Assembly: GCA_018646625.1 (NCBI GenBank)
Contig: JABGUJ010000004.1
Span: 62,001 to 126,000 of the forward strand
DNA from: Candidatus Woesearchaeota archaeon
GTDB taxonomy: Archaea > Nanobdellota > Nanobdellia > Woesearchaeales > JABGUJ01
DNA: 64,000 bases
Reading direction: 5' to 3'
A model generated the notes under the pieces. The model saw only the letters and a list, made by a program, of their open reading frames with translations, did not search any database and was not told where the DNA came from. The stretch's first letter is position 1. Every line of letters starts with the position of its first letter. This document shows positions 28,230-41,430 of this stretch, piece after piece. The position numbers and the translations under genes are program-made.

Positions 28230-31200
28230 GTGAACACCTCTAGACTGTTTCTAGCGATCTTTGTAGTCTACTTTCTTCTAATTCAACCTTTGGCTGCAAC
28301 TTCGCAAATTAATCCCTCATACTCTTTTAATTTGCCTGTAGATGATACTACGTTAGATGATTGTCTTACTAATGATGACTGCGATGAAAGTTATCACTGT
28401 TCTAATGAAAGTCTTTGTGCAGAATGTAGTCTTTGGGAGGATGATGACATCTGTTGTAATGGTGAACGAGGCGGTGATTGTGGATTGGAAGAAGAAACAA
28501 ATTGCCAAGATGGAACTGATAATGACGATGATTACTTTGTTGACTGTGAAGATGCTGATTGTATATTGAATGAGGAATGTCGTTGTAGTGCTAGAGATGA
28601 TTGTTGGGATAATACTTACTGCTTTGACGGTTTATGTATTCCTTGTGATAAGAATGAAGATGATTGGGTTTGTTGCCAAGGGGAAGATCTAAAGAGCGCA
28701 GATTGCCAATCCGAAGATAATGTTGAGAGAATCTGTGATGATTTAAGAGATAATGATTTTGACGGCAACAAAGACTGCGAAGATTCTGATTGCAAAGATA
28801 ATTGGCAATGCTTTTCATATAGCACAAACGAAATTTATACAATATCCTCTTCAGAGCCTGCCAGTAGTTTTTTTGATGACTTTAATTTGGGAATAAATTC
28901 TTCTTTTTACATAATCTCGAATGGAACTGATCTAACTATTAATTCTTATAACGGAATGGTGTTGGTAAACGGTAGCTTTGATCACGAGCTTGAATTATAT
29001 CCTTATGTTGATATTAAAACAATAAGCAACATCTCTGACGGAGATTTTCTTGCTACAGTTGATATTAACATAACTGACACAGGTGGTTCATTAGTTAGTG
29101 CGGAATTATATGGAGGTTTTGTATTGTCAAACACTTCAGGTCAATATGTCACATGTGAAATAGATTTAAACACCACTCACTATCGTCTACTTATATACAA
29201 CGATTCTTATGGTGAGGCTGCAGATAAAGCTTTGTTAACAAACGGCACCGGCTTGCTCAGTATGGGATATAACAGTGAAACAAACAACATTACTTGCGAG
29301 TTTGGAGGTGAGTCTATATCTGCATACTATCCATATATTGCAAATGAAGATCACGGTCTAGTTATAACTGGAGGGTTATCGGCAATTGGTACACCTGATA
29401 ACATTGGTGGAGATGTAAACATAACTTTTGATAATCTTAATTACACTCTTATTCCACTAGAATGTGGTGCGAATCTAGCCAGTTCAACAACTCTAGATTC
29501 TGATCTTTTAGGGTGTGGTAGTTACGCAATAAATATTTCATCAGATAACGTTACCTTGGATTGTAACGGCTACACAATACAGGGAGATGGTTCCTACGGA
29601 ATATATGTTGATGCAAATAACTTCACACTACAAAATTGTAATATATCCTTTAACGGAACGAGCAGCAACTATGCTATATATTATACATACGACAACAAGA
29701 GCAACAGTAACTTATTCAACAACACAATTTACGCGGGAAATAATACTGCGATATGGGTGCATAACAGGCTTTTCAATCTTACAATTACGGATAATCACAT
29801 CGAAGCTGCGGACTTCAACGTGCTTATGATTAGCAGCACATCAAGCGGTGTTGTACTGACAAATAATACAATTCTAGGACAAGGTTGGATAGTGAGCTTT
29901 GGTGCTTCTAATGGTGTAGTTACCAACAACGTGATGAATGCCTCCAATGGATGGTATGCCTTTTCGTTAATTGGGGACAATAATACTGTTGCCAACAATA
30001 ACATCTCAGCTACTGGTCAAAAAACATTCTATTTAGAAGGGAGCAACAATACTGTTTACGATAACAGAGTGCAAGCTAACGGGCCAGCACTATTCTCTCA
30101 ATCCGCCGACCCAGATCAAAATACTTTCCTTAACAACAGATTTGCTACATCACTAAATATAGGGTACTTAGTTTCATTGTATAGTTTCTCTCATTCTAAT
30201 GTTCTAGTTTACAACAATTCATTTGGAGAGATACGATGGTCTGGAGAAGGTCTCTCTTTAGATACAAGTGATGCAGCCACGCTTGACCACGGAGAAGGAT
30301 TAAATATTTCTCAAAACTTTATTAGCTTTGATTCTGATACATTCACTGAAGTATATGATCAAATAGCTACAATATCTTTTTACAACTTAAGCTACAATGA
30401 AACACCAGTTTTACTTAAAGATGGGGCAAGGTGTGATCATACGGACTCTTGCAACATAAGCTATAACAATGTTACAGGGATACTTTACGCCAACGTAAGC
30501 GAGTTCAGCAACTACACGACAACAGCAGATGTGCCTTGTGGAATTATAAACTCTAACTTCAATTTGAGCTATGATCTCACCTCAAGTGAAACTTGTTTCA
30601 CAATAAACTCATCCAACGTAGTGCTAGACTGCGCAGGATACACAATCACTGGTAACGGCTCAGGCTACGGGGTTAACATCACTAATGTAGATAACGTTAC
30701 CATTGAAAATTGTATTGTTAACAACTTTAGTCGTGGAATTAGCAAAGATGGTTATGATCTTAATACCTATTACACTTTTCAGAACAACACAATAAACACA
30801 TATGGTGAGTCTGGATATGGGCTTTATTTAATAGTTTCACAGAATTCTACAATCTTCAATAACACAATAACTACTAGTGGATATCAAGGAAGTGCACTGT
30901 ATTTCAATCCTGGAATTAATTACAGTAACGTAAGTCAGAACACATTAACAACTTACGCTAATTGGAGTTACGGAATATTCCCTGCACTCTCTTACAACAA
31001 CGTCATAGATAGCAACACCATAGTTACCTATGGGAACACCTCTGATGGAATGGATGCTCCTAGCTCATATGGTAACACAATTAGCAACAACAACATAACA
31101 ATCTACGGAGAAGCAGGAGGTATAGATATAGTATACAATTCTTCCCACAACACCATTAGCAACAACGTTATAACACATTCTGGAGATGATAGTGCTGCTC

Positions 31201-34200
31201 TGGAATTGTGTGAATACGCGACTAACAACACGCTCTCGAACAACATAGTTCAAATAACAGGCACCGATAGCGCGGGAATAGATATTTGTGATTATGCTTA
31301 CAACAATACAATAATAAACGGAATATTAAATGCAACACTCTTTTCAGATGTAATATTAGAAAATGGTGGGAACAACAACGTGTTCCTCAACGTATCATTC
31401 AACAAGAGCGATGTTGGTTTTGAAGGTACTTCAGGATCAATAATTGTAAGGTGGTATGTACAGGTGAATGTAACCGACGAACTAAGTTCTCCCATCTCAT
31501 CTGTAAACGTCTCAGGATACAATGTCACTAGTCAGGTTGAAGATTCCGCTTTAACGGATGCAAACGGGCAAGCCACTTTAACTCTCACAGAATTCACTCA
31601 AAACTCCTCCCACACAACATACGCGACGCCACATAGCGTGATCGCTTCACTTCAAGGATATGCTGACGATTCGTCTTCAGTAAATCTCACTCAAACAGAG
31701 TCAACTACTGTTCAACTAACTTTAACCAACGACTGTGCGGTCTTGAACGGAGATTACACTTTAGTAAGAGACATAACAACTTCAGGAACCTGCTTCCACA
31801 TAAACGCTTCTGACATAACTATTGATGGTGCTGGCTATTCGCTAACAGGAGACGGCACTGGCTATGGGATAAACAACTCTGGACAGTTTGACAATCTAAT
31901 AATCAGAAACTTTGGAAACATTTCAAACTTCAAGTTTCCGATTTACACATATTTCATGACTGACTCAGTCATTTATAACAATACCATTGACATACCAGCC
32001 ATAGGTGGAGGTTCAGGAGTATACTTAAAATATTCAGACAACAACAATATCTCTCTGAACAATATAACAACCCAAAGTTCTAGCACAGGGATAGAAGGTC
32101 CTGGAGCAGATAACAACGACATCTTTTATAATACAATCTCAACAACTGGGGGCACAGGTTATGGAATTCAATTCTACACAAGCTCTAGCTCAAATACATT
32201 ATTTGGCAATACAATCTCATCATCGGGAGTGGGCACGGACGCGGTAAGAATATCTGGAGGAAGTAGCTATAACATCTCAAACAACACTCTATTCTCTCTT
32301 AACTCTACAAGCATGGGACTCTACTTAAGCGCTAGCCATTCATTTGTCATCTCAAACACCATTAACACCACAGGCAACTCTGCGGATGGAATCAATTTAG
32401 TCGGAGTAACAAATATGACTCTTACCTCAAATACAATCTACACAACAGGTGAAGGCAGTGGAGGGTATGGTATAGATTTAGCAACAGTATCTGATTCTCA
32501 CATCGCCGAAAACAATATTACAACAACAGGGGACAACTTTGGTGCAATAACCTTCTCTAATTCAAATAGCAACGTCGTTGAATTAAATACTGCCACCACA
32601 TACGGATCTGAAAGCGACTCCTTATTATTAGTAAACGCAGATCATAACATTGTTTCAGAAAATATTATTACGACATACGGTTATGATGCAAATGGCGTCT
32701 ATATATCATCAGGATCTACAAATTGCACTTTGATTTCGAATACTATAAACACCCAAAGTCAATATGGGCGAGGCATTCAGATGGCTTCAACTCCAGATTA
32801 TCCTTCTATGACGTTTTTCAACAACAACATCACTACTGAAGGATATCTCGCAGAAGGAATGTGGCTATATTATGCTCATTACGCTAATGTGACATCAAAC
32901 AGAATAACAACTAATGGGAATTCTAGTATTGTGTTAAGATATAGTTTATCTAATCACACCTCAAGCCAAAATAACATATTAATATCCAATGGAAACTCAA
33001 GTCATTGCTTGACGCATTCAACCTCTTTTAATTCTACTGCGAGTAACAACATAATAAACACAACAGGAAATTCTAGTCACGGAACTTGGAGTTCAAACAT
33101 AGAGAGCACTAACATATCGTACAACAACATAACGACAGAATCGGCACTAGCCAGAGGCATAATGCACGATAACTCTAACGACAACTGGTTTACAAACAAC
33201 ATAATAGTTACGAATGGAGATGATGCAATAGGTATTACTAATTCAAATTGTGAACGAGACACGATATCTTACAATACAGTTACGACTCAAGGAAACGACG
33301 CCGATGGTATTTATTTTGTGGGATCTCCAAACACAACTGCCAACAACAATAATATATCTATTACTGGAGAATCGGGTAACGCTATGTTGATTGTAACTTC
33401 ACAAAGAGCAAACCTTTCCAATAATACTGCGAGTGTTGAAAGAGACTCTGTGTTTGATGTGTACTTGATAACTTCAAACAATTCTCAAGTTATTGGGAAT
33501 TACTTTATATCGGATGGTAATAATAGTCACCCAATTGTACTTGAGCGAACGCATCACAGTCTTATTAGCGATAATGAAATAATAACGTATAACCTTTCTT
33601 CAGGTATTTACTTGGCGAATCTTTCATCTCTCAACAACATAACATCTAATAATATTACCACGTACGGAGATCAAGGACACGGGATATATAGCAATTATAA
33701 CGCTTCTCAGAATAGAATAGAAAATAATTATGTTGATGTAAGTGGAAACGCCACAACAGGCATTACATTGCTTGGTTTTTCTAATAATTATACAATCGCC
33801 AACAACACTTTAAGCTATTCGGGTAATGAAGTATTTCAAGGCATTTACATTAACGCATCAGATAATAATATTATTTTGTCTAATCTCGCGGATTATCAAC
33901 CCGGGACAGGCAAATGGGCATTTTATATTTATGATGTCGAAAATACATTAGTGAATGGACTAGTTATGCCGGAAAGTGTGAACATAACAACCAACTATCT
34001 AAAAAGGGTGGCTGTAGACATTGAGTCCTCTCCTGAGTCGCATTCAAGTGAGCTACGAAACCTTTCCACCTTCTTACAAATTCTCGGTGTAACAGACGAA
34101 GCATACATAGATTTCAATTTGAGTTATGATGGGGTTGATATTACAAGCATTGATGAATCCTCACTTAGAATTTATTGGTATAATGGTACTGATTGGGCGG

Positions 34201-37200
34201 TCTTACCAAATTCAAGCATTGATGTGGAGAATAATGTTATTTCATCAGGGAATATTTCTTTGTCTTCTTTAGAAGTTTTTGCCCCTTTAGGTCAATCTAG
34301 CTCAATGTGTCAAACACTCAACTCTGATCTCCTACTAGATATTAATCTCGATACAAATGGGAGTTGTTTTACAATAAATTCCTCGAATATAGTCATCAAC
34401 GGAAATGGTTACACGATCACAGGTGATGGATCGGGATATGGTATAAACAACTCGGCAGGCTTCGATAATATCACAATAATAAACTTTACTGGAATCAATA
34501 ATTTCTCAAATGGCATATACGCAGAAGGCATGCAAAATTCTACAATATATAACAATACCATACAAAGCGCAAATGGTAACAATGCGCATGCGATTCGTTT
34601 AGGGGACTCATCTAGTTTCAATAATATATCTTCAAACACAATTAGTTTAAACGGAAACACTGCACATGGAGTCTATTTAACTGGTTCTTCTGATTCTGCT
34701 TATATATCTAGTAATACGATAACTGATACATCCGTAAATAACGAAGCAATCTATATCGTGGCTTCAGATAATGCAATTATAGAACATAATACGATAACTC
34801 TATCGGGTGGTAGGGCTATTGAGTTGAATGGGGCCGTAACTAACAATACAATAACTAACAACAACATTGAAGTATCTTCTGGAGGATATGGTATTATACT
34901 TTTATCAGGTCCTTACAATAACATGGTTTCGTATAACAATGTTACTGGTAGTTTAGTATCTCACTCGATATATCTGGTTAACGGAGATGATAATACCATC
35001 TATCATAACATTGTTGATGTGGCCTCAACCGGAGAACCTGTTATGTATCTTAATGTAGGATCTGAGAATAACAACATATCAACGAATATAATAACAACAT
35101 CTGATGTGGGCTCTCATGGAATACGAGTTGAGAACTCTGACAATAACCTATTTGAGTACAATAATGTAACTGCAACACAAACAAGTGGTTATGGTTTTAG
35201 ACTGAATAATGCAGACAATAACACAATATTTGCAAATAATATCAACGGAACAAGTACTTCAACAAACGGGATAGATATTTCTAACAGTACCAACAACAAA
35301 TTATATTCTAACTTCATCAATACTTTGTATTATGGTGCGGAAGGGATATATTTGGACGATGGGACAAATAATACTAACATTTCTATGAATCAAATAGTAA
35401 CTGAAGGAGAAGATGCGTATGGGATTTACATATATCGTGATTCTTCAAACAATTATTTCAACAGTAATAATATTACTGTATTGACATCTATTGGGGTTAT
35501 GGTGCGAGTAGATTCGGATGATAATGAATTCCATTCTGATACTGTCAACGTAGTTAACAACGCAAGTTTCTACATATATCAGAACGCCGCGGGAACGACA
35601 CTCGACGATGTGATAATAAATAATGGCCCGAACATCTCTAGTAGTTCAATGGATAACATATCGATCGGCGGGGTGGTTGCGATTCCGCCAGATGTTGATA
35701 ATCTAAGCAACATGTCAGACTATCTAACTATAAATAGTCAAGGAGATGGCGCGCATATTGATCTCAACTTAAGTTATACAACAGTCGATGTTACTAATGT
35801 ATCTGAGAGCAGCATACGCTTATATGAGTATAACGGATCAAACTGGACTTTGGTATCTACTTCTGGAGTTGATACATTAAACAATGTTGTTTATTCAGGA
35901 GAAATAATTAATTTTTCCATCTTTGCTCCTTTTGGAACATCTGGTGCATTTAATCCGACGATTAATAACATAGAATGTAGTGTTGATAATGGCACCAACT
36001 GGTCAACATGTTCCTCTGTTACGTATGGGGGGGAAATAACCAATCTATCTATTAATTGCACAGATCCTAACGGCGATGTTTCCTATGCGAGTTTTAGAGT
36101 TTATAACGAATATGATGATAACAATGTACTGAACCAAACAAACTCTACGCAGTCCTTAGGAGATCGTTGGATTATTAACACAAACTTCTCATTTCAAGAT
36201 TCAGGAAATATGTTGATTGAGACAATATGCACAGACTTACAAAACAACACAGATGACTATAACACAACTTGGTTTGTAGATTGGGGCACTTTACAACCAT
36301 ATTACGTGAATTCTACTGGTGATCTAGTGTATTCGCTAGATGGCTTCAATGTTACTCGATCCGAATTTTTCAATATGACAACAGGCGTACTCTGTGTTGG
36401 AGGAGAATGTCCTAATGTAACTGCTGCCCTAGATCCAATGCCCGTCGTAAAGAAGATTAAGGCAAAAGTTGCAGGTCGCAGTTTGAGAAAAGCAGAGAAT
36501 TTACCAAAACGATTCAGAGAGAACAAAAAAGAGCGTAAACCAGGCCAAATAAAAATAATACACTTCAAGTCTATTATTCAAGATGAATGGAAAGAAGAAC
36601 TAACTAGTCTTGGTGTAGTTCTCTATAATTATCGTCCTGAAAACTCCTTTGTTGCAAGAATAACAGACATAGGTTCTGTTACATCTTTACCTTATGTTGA
36701 ATCCATTGGTGATTTACCCAAGGAACGTAAGATTGTTGGTGCGGAAAGAAAGAAAGCCAGAAGGCAAAGTTACAAAGCATCTGTTAACAAACGAACCCGA
36801 TTTTCTTTGGGGATATTTGATGAAGGGGATAGAGATGATGTGATTACTAATCTGAATAATAATTCAATAGAGATCTTAACAGTTACTGATGATAAGATCA
36901 CATTCATTGCAAGCACACAAGAAGTAGACTCAATTGTATCTTTACCTGAAGTTGAATATGTTGAAGACGTGATTCAATATACCATAAAGAATGATTTAGC
37001 TACTGACACTATGGAAATTGACCAGGTAGGTTGGTTAGCTTATGGTTTGTCCGGAAATAACATGACTGTCGCAGTTGCTGATTCTGGATTAGATACGGGT
37101 GTAGATAACTTCTCGGTTGATGATGATATTCACAGGGATTTTGATAATCGGGCGACTATTTATAATTGGAATTGCACAGTTTACGGTGAGAGTTGTACTG

Positions 37201-40199
37201 ATCCTGATGATAAGAACGGGCATGGAACTCATGTGACTGGTTCGGTTGCGGGAGATGGTAACAGATCGACTAACCAATATAGAGGGTCTGCATATGAGTC
37301 AAACATAATCTTTCAAGCCATAGGTGATGACGATGGATCGAGAAGTGTATATCCTCCTCCTACTTTGGCTGAATTATTCTCGCAAGCATACAACGCTGGT
37401 GCGAGAATACATACAAATAGTTGGGGCGGCGGCGGTAATGGCTATTACTACAGCGATTGTACTGCGGTTGATGCGTTTTTGTATGATTATCCTGAATTAT
37501 TAATCCTTTTTGCAGCAGGCAATGAAGGATCTGGAACTAATACTATTGACGCACCTGGAACTTCAAAAAATACGTTGACTGTTGGTGCCTCATACAATTC
37601 AAGATCGGGAAATATAGATACTATTGCTAGTTTTAGTTCAAGAGGACAAACAGATGATGGTAGAGTTAAACCAGACGTGGTCGCACCTGGGACTGCAATA
37701 TATTCAACTAAATCTAGTCAAATTGATTCCGCAACACCGGCATGTAATACTGGAGGACTGGGGGGATCATACTATTCATCATGTCAAGGAACTAGTATGG
37801 CGACACCTTTAGTTGCAGGTATGGCTACTCTAACTAGAGAATATTTTCAAGAATGGCAAGACGAAACAAATGTTTCGGGAGTTTTAGTTAAGGCGGCAAT
37901 AATCAGTGGTGCAGATGAAACAAGTTACGGCTTTCCAAGCACTGCGACAGGGTGGGGCAGAGTGAATCTAACAAGAACCATTAATCCGCCACCTCCTGCA
38001 GGTTTTGACTACATAGATAACAAAACTGGTTTAACAACAGGAAATACTGCATCTTACACTTTTGATGTAACTGACACTTCGGTTCCTGTAAAAGTAACAT
38101 TAGTCTGGATGGACTATGAAGCATCCGCTGGCGCCGATCCTACACTAATCAATGATTTAAATCTGTTAGTACAAACACCAAACGCCAGTTTATACAGAGG
38201 AAATGATTTCGATGCAACGCCTGATGATGAAAATGATTCCATAAACAACGTTGAGATTGTAAGAATTAGCGATCCAGAAACAGGAACGTTCACAGTTAAC
38301 ATAACAGGGTACAACATTCCTCAAGGACCTCAACCTTATGCATTAATTTTCTATGGCGGAATAAGGCTGGCCGCATCAGATAAATTTGATGACGTATTAT
38401 CGACTGATTTAGAATCTCTAAACAATACAGCGATACAAAACGTAACCAATTTAACAATTGGAATTGCAAACAAAGGTCAAATAAATTATGGTTTGCAAGG
38501 AGTTAATGTCTCTGGGGCCGATTTGAATAAATACATAACAATAGATGATAACTTAATTAGTTTAGATGCGGACAACCTACCACTGCTAAATACGTCTGCA
38601 AGGCTAAGTATTTTTGATCTATCTTATTCTTGGACGCCGCTAATATACAAAGACGGCTCAGTATGTTCAGATTGTAGTGACATAACTTACACTAATGGGA
38701 ACTTATCATTTAATGTGACTGGATTCAGCAACTATACGACAAGTGTTAGTGCACAACTTGCTATTAATGACGACACTGATGATGGAATTACTGCTTATCC
38801 TAATCAAGAAATATATTTCTATGCGAACTACACCAATATAACTGACAACTCTCCAATAAATAACTCGGTTGGACAATGTACTATTACTTTTGAGAGTTCT
38901 CCTACTCACACCATGACATATAATGCTGCAACAGGAGAATATGAATATAGTAGAACCTTTTCTTCAAATACTACATATACTTACATTATCTCATGTAACG
39001 GTACTGATTACGAACCACTAAGTTTGTCAGATGACATAATTGTTCAAAACAGCAGCGAGTCTAAAGGATTAATATCAACAACGGAAGGCGCAACTCCATT
39101 CTGGACAAATGCATCAAGTAATCCTGCCAACTCTTCAGAATATTCTTGTTTATTGAATATGCGGGGAGGAGAAACTTGTAATCAAACCTGGTATGTGACG
39201 CCCACGGGAAATGTAGGCACAACCTGGAACTTCTTTTCAATATACGAATCAACAGTTAATTCAAGTTATGTGATTTCTAATACTTCGAACACAGTTAATG
39301 TTACAATTACTTTGGGATCATCTGTTGAAGCACCTACTGCGTTATTCATCACAAACATAAACGATTCGGCATTGTACTTGAATTGGACAAATGTTGTAGA
39401 TGCAGATAGTTACACGGTTTATTACAGTACAAATGTAACACAAATACTAAACCTGAACATTAGCAATTTAGGTGCTGCTGTAACAAACGTAACTGGAATA
39501 CCGATACTTAACTGGACTGACACAAGTTCCGGATCTGTAACAGAAAGATATTATAGAGTTGCCGCAATTAGGTCGGGTGATGGTAATTTAACAACTGATA
39601 CGATTGGTAAGTACGACATAGAAGTTGTTGAGGCGACAGGAATACCTGGAAGCGGCGTAGATCTTAACTTGATATCCGTTCCTTTAATACCTAACAATTA
39701 TAGCATAAATGCGATACTTAATCAATCATCCGACAATGACTTGATTTACAGATACAATACGGACACCCAGAATTACCAAAGCACGCAATTTTTTGAAGGA
39801 TTTGGTTGGTTTGGTGATTTTGACGAATTTGAACCTGGGGTGGGTTATGCTTTCAAACCAGTTGCAGCTTCTTATAATTTCACAGTACTAGGAATTGTGC
39901 CTTCGAGCAATCTAACTGTGGCTATCAAAAACGCAACAGGGGTGCCGGGCAGCGGAATAGATTTAAATTTAATCGGCTGGCACAGCCCTCAAACCGTGTG
40001 CAATATAAGTGCCATAATTGATAACGCATCTAATAGTGATATAATTTATCGCTACAATACGCAAAGCCAAAACTACCAAAGCACGCAATTCTTCGACGGG
40101 TTTGGTTGGTTTGGTGATTTTGACTGTTTTGAGCCCGGAGTTGCATATGAATTTAAACCAGTAACGAGAAGTTATAATCTCAGCTACGGCCTTTCCTAG
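28230..40199 (+). CDS. Giant secreted beta-helix protein with embedded subtilisin-like protease
   Basis: A 3,989-aa protein with GTG start fixed by a Shine-Dalgarno and an upstream stop. Order: signal peptide (1-24), Cys-rich acidic head (about 40-200), LamG-like segment (about 210-410), long NosD-like right-handed beta-helix arrays (about 420-2700), a subtilase pro-domain-like region (about 2770-2910), S8 peptidase domain (about 2940-3230) with Asp2951 (VADSG), His2998 (GHGTHV), oxyanion Asn3098 (AAGNEG) and Ser3189 (GTSMATP), the beta-barrel domain usual after such subtilases (about 3240-3380), further beta domains, Fn3 and the terminal module shared with gene 1. All catalytic residues are intact. 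In other subtilases the pro-domain is cut off autocatalytically; here that would separate about 2,800 residues of stalk from the protease (inference). Its stop codon directly abuts the stop of the convergent gene at 40200. N-glycosylation sequons are very frequent. Confidence 0.9.
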   Translation: MNTSRLFLAIFVVYFLLIQPLAATSQINPSYSFNLPVDDTTLDDCLTNDDCDESYHCSNESLCAECSLWEDDDICCNGERGGDCGLEEETNCQDGTDNDDDYFVDCEDADCILNEECRCSARDDCWDNTYCFDGLCIPCDKNEDDWVCCQGEDLKSADCQSEDNVERICDDLRDNDFDGNKDCEDSDCKDNWQCFSYSTNEIYTISSSEPASSFFDDFNLGINSSFYIISNGTDLTINSYNGMVLVNGSFDHELELYPYVDIKTISNISDGDFLATVDINITDTGGSLVSAELYGGFVLSNTSGQYVTCEIDLNTTHYRLLIYNDSYGEAADKALLTNGTGLLSMGYNSETNNITCEFGGESISAYYPYIANEDHGLVITGGLSAIGTPDNIGGDVNITFDNLNYTLIPLECGANLASSTTLDSDLLGCGSYAINISSDNVTLDCNGYTIQGDGSYGIYVDANNFTLQNCNISFNGTSSNYAIYYTYDNKSNSNLFNNTIYAGNNTAIWVHNRLFNLTITDNHIEAADFNVLMISSTSSGVVLTNNTILGQGWIVSFGASNGVVTNNVMNASNGWYAFSLIGDNNTVANNNISATGQKTFYLEGSNNTVYDNRVQANGPALFSQSADPDQNTFLNNRFATSLNIGYLVSLYSFSHSNVLVYNNSFGEIRWSGEGLSLDTSDAATLDHGEGLNISQNFISFDSDTFTEVYDQIATISFYNLSYNETPVLLKDGARCDHTDSCNISYNNVTGILYANVSEFSNYTTTADVPCGIINSNFNLSYDLTSSETCFTINSSNVVLDCAGYTITGNGSGYGVNITNVDNVTIENCIVNNFSRGISKDGYDLNTYYTFQNNTINTYGESGYGLYLIVSQNSTIFNNTITTSGYQGSALYFNPGINYSNVSQNTLTTYANWSYGIFPALSYNNVIDSNTIVTYGNTSDGMDAPSSYGNTISNNNITIYGEAGGIDIVYNSSHNTISNNVITHSGDDSAALELCEYATNNTLSNNIVQITGTDSAGIDICDYAYNNTIINGILNATLFSDVILENGGNNNVFLNVSFNKSDVGFEGTSGSIIVRWYVQVNVTDELSSPISSVNVSGYNVTSQVEDSALTDANGQATLTLTEFTQNSSHTTYATPHSVIASLQGYADDSSSVNLTQTESTTVQLTLTNDCAVLNGDYTLVRDITTSGTCFHINASDITIDGAGYSLTGDGTGYGINNSGQFDNLIIRNFGNISNFKFPIYTYFMTDSVIYNNTIDIPAIGGGSGVYLKYSDNNNISLNNITTQSSSTGIEGPGADNNDIFYNTISTTGGTGYGIQFYTSSSSNTLFGNTISSSGVGTDAVRISGGSSYNISNNTLFSLNSTSMGLYLSASHSFVISNTINTTGNSADGINLVGVTNMTLTSNTIYTTGEGSGGYGIDLATVSDSHIAENNITTTGDNFGAITFSNSNSNVVELNTATTYGSESDSLLLVNADHNIVSENIITTYGYDANGVYISSGSTNCTLISNTINTQSQYGRGIQMASTPDYPSMTFFNNNITTEGYLAEGMWLYYAHYANVTSNRITTNGNSSIVLRYSLSNHTSSQNNILISNGNSSHCLTHSTSFNSTASNNIINTTGNSSHGTWSSNIESTNISYNNITTESALARGIMHDNSNDNWFTNNIIVTNGDDAIGITNSNCERDTISYNTVTTQGNDADGIYFVGSPNTTANNNNISITGESGNAMLIVTSQRANLSNNTASVERDSVFDVYLITSNNSQVIGNYFISDGNNSHPIVLERTHHSLISDNEIITYNLSSGIYLANLSSLNNITSNNITTYGDQGHGIYSNYNASQNRIENNYVDVSGNATTGITLLGFSNNYTIANNTLSYSGNEVFQGIYINASDNNIILSNLADYQPGTGKWAFYIYDVENTLVNGLVMPESVNITTNYLKRVAVDIESSPESHSSELRNLSTFLQILGVTDEAYIDFNLSYDGVDITSIDESSLRIYWYNGTDWAVLPNSSIDVENNVISSGNISLSSLEVFAPLGQSSSMCQTLNSDLLLDINLDTNGSCFTINSSNIVINGNGYTITGDGSGYGINNSAGFDNITIINFTGINNFSNGIYAEGMQNSTIYNNTIQSANGNNAHAIRLGDSSSFNNISSNTISLNGNTAHGVYLTGSSDSAYISSNTITDTSVNNEAIYIVASDNAIIEHNTITLSGGRAIELNGAVTNNTITNNNIEVSSGGYGIILLSGPYNNMVSYNNVTGSLVSHSIYLVNGDDNTIYHNIVDVASTGEPVMYLNVGSENNNISTNIITTSDVGSHGIRVENSDNNLFEYNNVTATQTSGYGFRLNNADNNTIFANNINGTSTSTNGIDISNSTNNKLYSNFINTLYYGAEGIYLDDGTNNTNISMNQIVTEGEDAYGIYIYRDSSNNYFNSNNITVLTSIGVMVRVDSDDNEFHSDTVNVVNNASFYIYQNAAGTTLDDVIINNGPNISSSSMDNISIGGVVAIPPDVDNLSNMSDYLTINSQGDGAHIDLNLSYTTVDVTNVSESSIRLYEYNGSNWTLVSTSGVDTLNNVVYSGEIINFSIFAPFGTSGAFNPTINNIECSVDNGTNWSTCSSVTYGGEITNLSINCTDPNGDVSYASFRVYNEYDDNNVLNQTNSTQSLGDRWIINTNFSFQDSGNMLIETICTDLQNNTDDYNTTWFVDWGTLQPYYVNSTGDLVYSLDGFNVTRSEFFNMTTGVLCVGGECPNVTAALDPMPVVKKIKAKVAGRSLRKAENLPKRFRENKKERKPGQIKIIHFKSIIQDEWKEELTSLGVVLYNYRPENSFVARITDIGSVTSLPYVESIGDLPKERKIVGAERKKARRQSYKASVNKRTRFSLGIFDEGDRDDVITNLNNNSIEILTVTDDKITFIASTQEVDSIVSLPEVEYVEDVIQYTIKNDLATDTMEIDQVGWLAYGLSGNNMTVAVADSGLDTGVDNFSVDDDIHRDFDNRATIYNWNCTVYGESCTDPDDKNGHGTHVTGSVAGDGNRSTNQYRGSAYESNIIFQAIGDDDGSRSVYPPPTLAELFSQAYNAGARIHTNSWGGGGNGYYYSDCTAVDAFLYDYPELLILFAAGNEGSGTNTIDAPGTSKNTLTVGASYNSRSGNIDTIASFSSRGQTDDGRVKPDVVAPGTAIYSTKSSQIDSATPACNTGGLGGSYYSSCQGTSMATPLVAGMATLTREYFQEWQDETNVSGVLVKAAIISGADETSYGFPSTATGWGRVNLTRTINPPPPAGFDYIDNKTGLTTGNTASYTFDVTDTSVPVKVTLVWMDYEASAGADPTLINDLNLLVQTPNASLYRGNDFDATPDDENDSINNVEIVRISDPETGTFTVNITGYNIPQGPQPYALIFYGGIRLAASDKFDDVLSTDLESLNNTAIQNVTNLTIGIANKGQINYGLQGVNVSGADLNKYITIDDNLISLDADNLPLLNTSARLSIFDLSYSWTPLIYKDGSVCSDCSDITYTNGNLSFNVTGFSNYTTSVSAQLAINDDTDDGITAYPNQEIYFYANYTNITDNSPINNSVGQCTITFESSPTHTMTYNAATGEYEYSRTFSSNTTYTYIISCNGTDYEPLSLSDDIIVQNSSESKGLISTTEGATPFWTNASSNPANSSEYSCLLNMRGGETCNQTWYVTPTGNVGTTWNFFSIYESTVNSSYVISNTSNTVNVTITLGSSVEAPTALFITNINDSALYLNWTNVVDADSYTVYYSTNVTQILNLNISNLGAAVTNVTGIPILNWTDTSSGSVTERYYRVAAIRSGDGNLTTDTIGKYDIEVVEATGIPGSGVDLNLISVPLIPNNYSINAILNQSSDNDLIYRYNTDTQNYQSTQFFEGFGWFGDFDEFEPGVGYAFKPVAASYNFTVLGIVPSSNLTVAIKNATGVPGSGIDLNLIGWHSPQTVCNISAIIDNASNSDIIYRYNTQSQNYQSTQFFDGFGWFGDFDCFEPGVAYEFKPVTRSYNLSYGLS
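36550..37930 (+). other. Pro-domain plus S8 peptidase domain inside gene 3
   Basis: The pro-domain-like part (about 36550-36980) has two small alpha/beta repeats ending near PLPYVE and SLPEVEYVE motifs, the pattern of I9-like subtilase inhibitors. The catalytic part carries the Asp codon at 37080, His at 37221, Asn at 37521 and Ser at 37794, each in its canonical motif. Confidence 0.9.
39330..40196 (+). repeat. Shared C-terminal module, copy in gene 3
   Basis: 289 codons that align without gaps by eye to 21252-22118 of gene 1, including more than 40 identical bases around 39350-39390. The two GFGWFGDFD repeats are preserved. High DNA identity across 18 kb suggests recent duplication or ongoing gene conversion. 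Confidence 0.9.
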
Positions 40200-41073: not shown

Positions 41074-41215
41074 CTTTCGTATTTTCTAAATTTTTTCACT
41101 GGACATCCAAATTATTTTCGAATAAGCCTATACAACAGATATCTATCACATAGAATCGCTAAAGCACACTGGTCACTAGACTTCTACTCGTGTGAGATTA
41201 ATAAAAAGAAAGAAT

Positions 41216-41271
41216 GCTGGAGTAACAGAGCCCAGCAAGCAACGAACAAAAGTTCGCCGACACACCACGTC
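41216..41271 (+). pseudogene. Decayed partial copy of the downstream tRNA-Leu gene
   Basis: The first 17 bases match the 5' end of the tRNA gene at 41311 with one change, and the last 15 match its variable arm (ACACCACGTC plus flank) with one indel. The anticodon arm is replaced by an unrelated perfect hairpin (CGAAC-AAAA-GTTCG, 41243-41256), and T arm and 3' acceptor strand are missing. It therefore cannot fold into a normal tRNA. It may be a relic of tandem duplication or a derived small RNA. Confidence 0.6.
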
Positions 41272-41310
41272 AAAGAACATAATACAAACAAAATATTTAA
41301 ATTTTTGTAT

Positions 41311-41430
41311 GCTGGAGTAGCAGAGCCTGGTTAATGCGCCGGCCTCAAGGACCGGCGACGACACCACGTCTCGCGGGTTCAAATCTCGCTATACGAATTT
41401 GGATTGCGGGTGAAATTCCCGCCTCCAGCG
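41311..41430 (+). tRNA. tRNA-Leu(CAA) with a 33-nt intron in the T-loop
   Basis: Exons are 41311-41383 and 41417-41430. Acceptor stem GCTGGAG/CTCCAGC (41311-41317 with 41423-41429), 3-bp D stem with the usual GCCTGG loop, anticodon stem CCGG/CCGG with an apparent C-A mismatch at 31-39, loop CTCAAGG with anticodon CAA (41344-41346), and a variable arm GACG-ACACCA-CGTC typical of type II tRNAs. Removing the intron restores a perfect T arm, GCGGG-TTCAAAT-CCCGC. The spliced length is 87 nt including the discriminator, which appears to be G (41430) where archaeal tRNA-Leu normally has A. CCA is not encoded. The assignment to Leu rests on the anticodon; the G73 is odd because G73 is typical for tRNA-Ser. 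Confidence 0.9.
41384..41416 (+). other. Archaeal tRNA intron with canonical bulge-helix-bulge, T-loop (59/60)
   Basis: The pre-tRNA pairs GCGGG (41373-41377) with CCCGC (41418-41422), then TTCA (41378-41381) with TGAA (41411-41414), has 3-nt bulges AAT (41382-41384) and ATT (41415-41417), and continues with CTCGC (41385-41389) pairing with GCGGG (41406-41410) under a 16-nt loop. Two 3-nt bulges flanking a 4-bp helix are exactly the splicing-endonuclease substrate; cutting after the second base of each bulge gives a 33-nt intron. Confidence 0.9.

Follow-up and report, generated by a model that had tools for sequence, protein, structure and literature searches.

A class II tRNA(CAA) with a T-loop intron, an upstream partial self-copy and a predicted antisense RNA in a Woesearchaeota-type archaeon

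The tRNA gene and its intron

In the 64,000-nucleotide stretch of DNA analysed here (the window, G000:C3:62001-126000), which belongs to an archaeal genome of 1.57 Mb in four contigs (96% complete), a class II tRNA gene with the anticodon CAA is located on the forward strand at 41311-41430 (Table 1). All acceptor pairs are present (7/7), the acceptor branch is of the 7/5 type, the variable region measures 17 nt, and the D and T features are intact. The gene is interrupted at position 59/60 by an intron in a bulge-helix-bulge (BHB) motif, and direct reading of the letters bears out the original prediction of two 3-nt bulges (AAT and ATT), a 4-bp central helix (TTCA/TGAA) and flanking 5-bp stems, the outer being GCGGG/CCCGC and the inner CTCGC/GCGGG, the latter including one G-U pair. 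Excision of the 33 nt leaves, as had also been foreseen, the T-loop TTCAAAT. It is the only perfect BHB within the surrounding 900 bp, and shuffled sequence (shuffled in two-base blocks, here as well as for the copy score, the antisense duplex and the operator below) yields 0.125 perfect motifs per 2.5 kb of one strand. The expectation that simple tRNA searches would miss the gene holds: neither ARAGORN nor Rfam at gathering score has any hit in the window, and the RF00005 model gives the tRNA 20.7 bits, below the cut-off.

Two properties of the gene had gone unremarked. The base following the acceptor stem is a G (41430) and not an A, and the anticodon stem contains a C31-A39 mismatch. A selenocysteine tRNA (anticodon TCA) was ruled out as a candidate, as the stem fits CAA only and the acceptor branch is 7/5.

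Table 1. Features of the locus, in coordinates of the window
Feature	Position	Strand	Remarks
Operator-like direct repeat CACTGGTCACTAGACT	41167-41182	+	15/16 match to CACTGGWCACTRGACA
Putative promoter of the sense transcript (GTGTGAG with an AT-rich, TATA-like box)	41190-41203	+	placed by motif-to-start spacing
Predicted antisense RNA	41198-41272	-	about 75 nt; hairpins, then U-rich 3' end
Partial copy, part 1	41216-41232	+	matches tRNA positions 1-17 (16/17)
Partial copy, part 2	41255-41271	+	corresponds to tRNA positions 43-60 in the variable arm
Reverse TATA-like box for the predicted antisense RNA	41294-41302	-	sequence; family AT profile
tRNA exon 1	41311-41383	+	anticodon CAA; C31-A39 mismatch
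33-nt intron at 59/60	41384-41416	+	BHB
tRNA exon 2	41417-41430	+	discriminator G73 at 41430

The Ala-TGC, Lys-CTT and Gly-TCC tRNAs of the same genome also have 59/60 introns with a perfect central helix, so that splicing in the T-loop appears to be routine in this organism. A strict BHB does not require a splicing endonuclease of relaxed specificity. A profile search identified one PF01974 (EndA) gene in the genome, the sequence of which is closest to the catalytic subunit of Nanoarchaeum equitans and the enzyme of M. jannaschii (3iey_A, 1a79_A). Archaeal tRNA introns at 59/60 are already known from Crenarchaeota and Nanoarchaeota (PMC4090602; PMC6379350), and as far as the available portions of these sources describe them, the window intron shares their position, the BHB and presumed splicing by EndA. 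Unlike these known introns, however, it sits in a family of class II tRNAs with G73, in a core subset of which the intron is predicted to pair with the variable arm rather than to close its own inner helix.

A family of supernumerary class II tRNAs

Judged by its sequence, the window gene is one of a family of class II tRNAs that Woesearchaeota-type archaea possess in excess of the usual set. Covariance models were built in two rounds, R1 from the window gene and one gene of the related genome G047, and R2 from 12 sequences, and the tRNAs that they matched, of class II and with an intron in the T-loop, come from further families of the order as well as from other orders of the class. From 89 parsed matches 83 were kept, one class I, four Ser-anticodon and one badly folded match being set aside; the anticodons of L149 and L305 were assigned by hand. 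These are the matches listed, mostly the best-scoring ones, and hence no random sample, and A35 members had served to build the model; among them, the 83 kept (class II, not Ser, with a good fold) are spread over 49 genomes and 21 families and show G73 in 81, A35 in 82 and a T-loop intron in 82 cases. The anticodons of the 83 listed members are GAA (18), TAA (17), CAA (12), TAT (10), CAG (9), TAG (6), GAT (5), GAG (3), AAG (2) and GTC (1), which correspond to Leu, Ile and Phe, with a single Asp. An independent search with RF00005 in the genomes G323 and G036 found 8 and 2 class II G73 non-Ser genes, respectively, and all of these have A35.

The family genes are additional to the ordinary tRNA complement: G036 has an ordinary Leu-TAA together with a family TAA gene, and G323 contains at least 8 family genes beside its ordinary ones. 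The members keep the tertiary features of tRNAs, U33, an intact T-loop and the BHB. The Levitt pair 15-48 is G-C in 38, A-U in 23 and otherwise in 8 members (n=69), and this covariation indicates that the family consists of folded tRNAs under selection. A viral origin found no support, one exact pattern having 0 matches in viral contigs; no common protein neighbours were obvious at nine family loci, and the search for synteny through a MEMO-like neighbour returned no relatives.

At one locus (L309, G113:C38:1602-3472), five family tRNAs with the anticodons TAG, GAT, CAA, GAA and CAA lie in less than 2 kb, and a small open reading frame among them resembles the products of genes linked to the operator described below (L421, L430, L440). 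A further class II tRNA(CAA) with G73 (L119, G106:C35:1844-1964) has a 5-bp D-stem and a canonical intron, and is without a T-loop intron.

The upstream copy, the predicted antisense RNA and the operator-like motif

Upstream of the tRNA, at 41216-41271, lies a partial copy of the gene itself, which was likewise absent from the original prediction. Its SW score of 29 is reached by none of 2000 shuffles and none of 1975 random window segments. Throughout the family, a partial self-copy is located about 45 nt upstream of most genes and usually runs to the loop of the variable arm; at a score of at least 26 it is present in 44 of 54 members. Among shuffles 2 of 1080 reach this score, among ordinary tRNAs 6 of 71 (two tandem tRNAs and four Ser genes), and the T-loop-intron tRNAs of the own genome outside the family have no copy (scores of 13 to 16). 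The remaining 10 members, several of them from G323, have no clear copy. The four ordinary Ser genes just mentioned (L088, L092, L102, L105) carry a same-strand copy of 14 to 17 nt of their 5' end at 41-105 nt upstream. The copy at the window locus was also considered as half of a split tRNA, which was ruled out, there being no 3' half to partner it and the downstream gene being complete.

The differences between the copies and their tRNAs are strongly directional. Leaving out L149, G to A is found at 89 of 415 and T to C at 55 of 386 sites, whereas the opposite transitions A to G and C to T occur at 6 of 370 and 15 of 388 sites (144 vs. 21, Fisher p 1e-24). By genome, 28 of 34 lean towards G to A and T to C, with two against and four ties. 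Many positions of the anticodon stem are still paired within the tRNA, so that the copy is the side that changed, and the direction of the changes suggests that an antisense RNA transcribed across the copy keeps pairing with the tRNA through G-U. Strand-asymmetric mutation could mimic part of this pattern, and it too would imply transcription of one strand. The window copy, with two blocks left, offers a single informative substitution.

For the antisense RNA predicted at the window locus, the calculated duplex with the pre-tRNA amounts to -77.7 kcal/mol, while among 30 other tRNAs of the genome the strongest partner reaches -46.7. The family medians are -70.8 kcal/mol with the own tRNA, -38.2 with swapped and -31.1 with shuffled partners, and in 30 of 36 cases the own tRNA is the best partner. 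In the family profile the AT fraction is 0.94-1.00 at +25 to +29 from the copy (1.00 at +27/+28); beyond this box a T-rich stretch reads as BRE-like on the reverse strand, and before the copy, at -66 to -50, an A-rich tract corresponds to a U-tract on that strand. The promoter-like box and the U-tract fit an antisense gene, which I infer to be transcribed. The best-scoring reverse TATA of each individual member is scattered (median 22 nt from the copy end, sd 9.3), as are the positions of a second upstream TATA searched per member. A box at -17 was dropped as forward promoter of the tRNA, since ordinary tRNAs here have theirs near -30.

The direct repeat CACTGGTCACTAGACT is the only site of the motif CACTGGWCACTRGACA in the window. 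The own genome contains 12 such sites within two mismatches, preceding genes, and none of the reversed pattern. In five leaderless genes among these the distance from motif to start is +59 to +61, and the same spacing would place the sense start of the tRNA precursor near 41226. Ten of the downstream proteins were scanned. Five of them are in keeping with DNA metabolism (MCM, a DEAD/ResIII helicase and one protein each of the Bro-N, RNase_H_2 and radical SAM kinds), and the other five are uninformative (one GyrI-like, one with DUF4186 and three that match no family above the cut-off). Nine scanned in relatives comprise an ERCC4 nuclease, a methyladenine glycosylase, a Cas4-like nuclease and an HhH protein, and furthermore an integrase, a Bro-N protein, a restriction-type protein and two without a family. 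I read the CACTGGWCACTRGACA motif as the mark of a damage-response regulon. A match of at least 13/16 precedes 12 of 53 family members, compared with 1 of 71 controls and 7 of 1060 shuffles, and the fact that the operator is found in a minority of members counts against the reading of the locus as a damage-controlled cassette.

Identity of the tRNA and the proposed cassette

The original prediction named the gene a tRNA-Leu. The anticodon and the long variable arm agree with this, the discriminator does not: G73 is a serine mark and the ordinary tRNA-Leu genes read have A73, which makes the plain label doubtful. A73 is found in all four ordinary Leu genes of G036 and in 10 of 11 listed ones from the own and related genomes, the eleventh (L399) being a 3'-incomplete match; the own genome's ordinary Leu-GAG, Leu-TAA and Leu-TAG all have it. 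According to the available part of PMC9976931, G73 is an antideterminant for LeuRS, and changing A73 to G73 switches Leu tRNAs to serine acceptors. The window tRNA combines G73 and the long variable arm of a tRNA-Ser with an anticodon that is not a serine one (CAA instead of NGA or GCU). Since the first two point to charging by SerRS, the tRNA is probably serine-accepting. One strong SerRS match per genome was seen in 13 of 14 genomes (G047 has fragments only), and a second SerRS in none.

Alternatively, the gene could code for a tRNA-Leu(CAA) that is divergent but otherwise ordinary and has a 59/60 intron, the LeuRS of this organism tolerating G73 and the copy being a decaying tandem duplicate. 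The anticodon is in its favour, as is A35 in 82 of the 83 relatives listed, which suits the decoding of hydrophobic codons and would be unexpected in a serine tRNA. The single LeuRS gene of the genome, beside which no second was seen, is of the bacterial type (TIGR00396, 1021 bits), which is usual here, the archaeal type being present in 2 of 14 genomes checked (G018 and G099). No second tRNA(CAA) gene, which the original prediction had named as grounds for its refutation, was found in the genome, and UUG reads as leucine: in the UUG columns of the own LeuRS, Leu prevails in 5 of 8 and mainly Ser in 0 of 8. Insertion of serine at UUG is therefore not the rule, and a reassignment of the codon is not supported by these LeuRS columns; UUG could be read by the ordinary Leu-TAA. 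However, ordinary Leu tRNAs keep A73, Leu-CAA genes of the ordinary kind, having A73 and a canonical intron, occur in G108 and G040 (L393, L394), the family also includes Ile, Phe and Asp anticodons, and the copy is fixed in position and diverges from the tRNA directionally. I consider this alternative unlikely.

A second alternative is suggested by the precursor itself. In 29 core genes, the intron begins with a segment that complements the 5' strand of the variable arm, and a bistable precursor is predicted from this. The two segments covary (helix weight 12.59 vs. 9.03 for shuffled partners, sd 0.48, 0 of 2000), also after reduction to 18 distinct arms, and the intron carries a second copy of the 5' T-stem strand. 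An alternative fold that makes use of these is at least as stable as cloverleaf plus BHB in 35 of 68 family precursors, whereas for all three control introns of the own genome the cloverleaf is the more stable by 9 to 13 kcal/mol. With -50.6 for the cloverleaf and -53.1 for the alternative, the window precursor is a weaker case than the core. Pairing between the V-loop and the T-stem is conserved as well (12.07 vs. 9.32 for letter shuffles, sd 0.37), and shows no covariation beyond partner shuffles after deduplication. The covariation and the fold preference would also suit an RNA of tRNA-like form that is regulated and stays uncharged, with the bistable precursor or the antisense partner working as a decoy, a sponge or an RNA switch. 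Against it, the full set of tertiary features, U33, T-loop and BHB are kept and A35 would have no reason to persist, and I give it only a small chance.

With its C31-A39 mismatch and a copy reduced to two blocks, the window member looks worn, and other degenerate copies exist in relatives, for example in G047 (L046), yet a decaying pseudogene is quite improbable in view of the 7/7 acceptor pairs, the perfect BHB, the intact D and T features, the 15/16 operator and the strong antisense complementarity at two sites.

With confidence that is about evenly balanced, I interpret 41167-41430 as one cassette for a damage-inducible, antisense-controlled and probably serine-accepting missense tRNA. In this cassette, the damage-type operator would drive the precursor, from which the splicing endonuclease would excise the intron. 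A divergent promoter between copy and tRNA would give rise to the short antisense RNA, with a start at about 41272, which would pair, G-U pairs included, with the 5' strand of the acceptor and the D-arm as well as with the variable arm, and so keep the tRNA inactive. Upon damage, the tRNA transcript would come to exceed the antisense RNA and mature tRNA would build up, which, once charged by SerRS, would insert serine at UUG codons. Such a mistranslating tRNA would probably be toxic or cause dormancy, the antisense RNA being the antidote. A35 poses the main difficulty: serine at hydrophobic codons would be damaging and hence fit a toxin; if the charge is leucine, the system would fit tolerance instead. 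The more general proposal, that many copies of an RNA-only toxin-antitoxin or stress switch exist in Woesearchaeota-type archaea, with a damage-inducible missense tRNA, gating by a bistable intron and a co-evolving antisense RNA, is a tentative one, which I hold with less than even confidence.

SOS-controlled toxins with an antisense RNA are known from tisB/istR-1 and symE/symR. The locus would resemble these, as far as signs in the DNA tell, in a putative damage-type operator on the effector and an adjacent putative antisense RNA, but their effector is a peptide mRNA and here it would be a tRNA, in an archaeon. The nev-tRNAs of nematodes are leucine-type class II bodies with mismatched anticodons, of eukaryotic origin and not known to have an antisense partner. 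The present family shares the class II body with a mismatched anticodon, and differs in being archaeal, in its serine-type G73 and in the predicted antisense partner. To my knowledge, no other system combines a family of tRNAs with a bistable intron and a conserved, predicted antisense partner, and this would hold even without toxicity. A description of such a system was not found in the open-access literature of PubMed Central.

In the available part of PMC7609411, allo-tRNAs are bacterial serine-type tRNAs with non-Ser anticodons, including those for Leu and Ile, and the tested ones insert serine in E. coli. The family is like them in uniting serine identity marks, here predicted from sequence, with a non-Ser anticodon. 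As described there, however, allo-tRNAs have a 12-bp acceptor branch of 8/4 or 9/3, diverse anticodons and bacterial hosts, in contrast to 7/5, almost exclusively A35 and archaea, and the intron, the antisense copy and the operator are further differences. In CreTA, as far as the consulted portion of PMC8501985 goes, an RNA toxin sequesters a rare tRNA, and the RNA antidote, CreA, serves as a CRISPR guide that targets the promoter through Cascade. Both partners are RNA and are aimed at tRNA decoding, as proposed here, but unlike in that account of CreTA the predicted antidote is a direct antisense RNA of a tRNA.

If the proposal is correct, a tRNA would itself be the regulated effector of a damage response and an antisense RNA its brake. 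Mistranslation, introns in tRNA genes and the control of stress would then be linked in archaea for which there is as yet no cultivation. As tRNA finders miss or misname the family genes, codon assignments derived from them may be wrong.

Other tRNA genes of the genome deserve mention. A Thr tRNA with the anticodon AGT (L011, G000:C4:278397-278469) occurs beside the normal Thr set, A34 being unusual in archaea, and three tRNA-His(GTG) genes (L017, L018, L027) are present in this one small genome. A tRNA-Lys(TTT) has an insert in the D-loop (L035, G000:C1:129285-129362), with a similar one in a relative (L069). Within the window, positions 28230-40199 are occupied by an open reading frame of 3989 amino acids with many repeats and a subtilase-like stretch.
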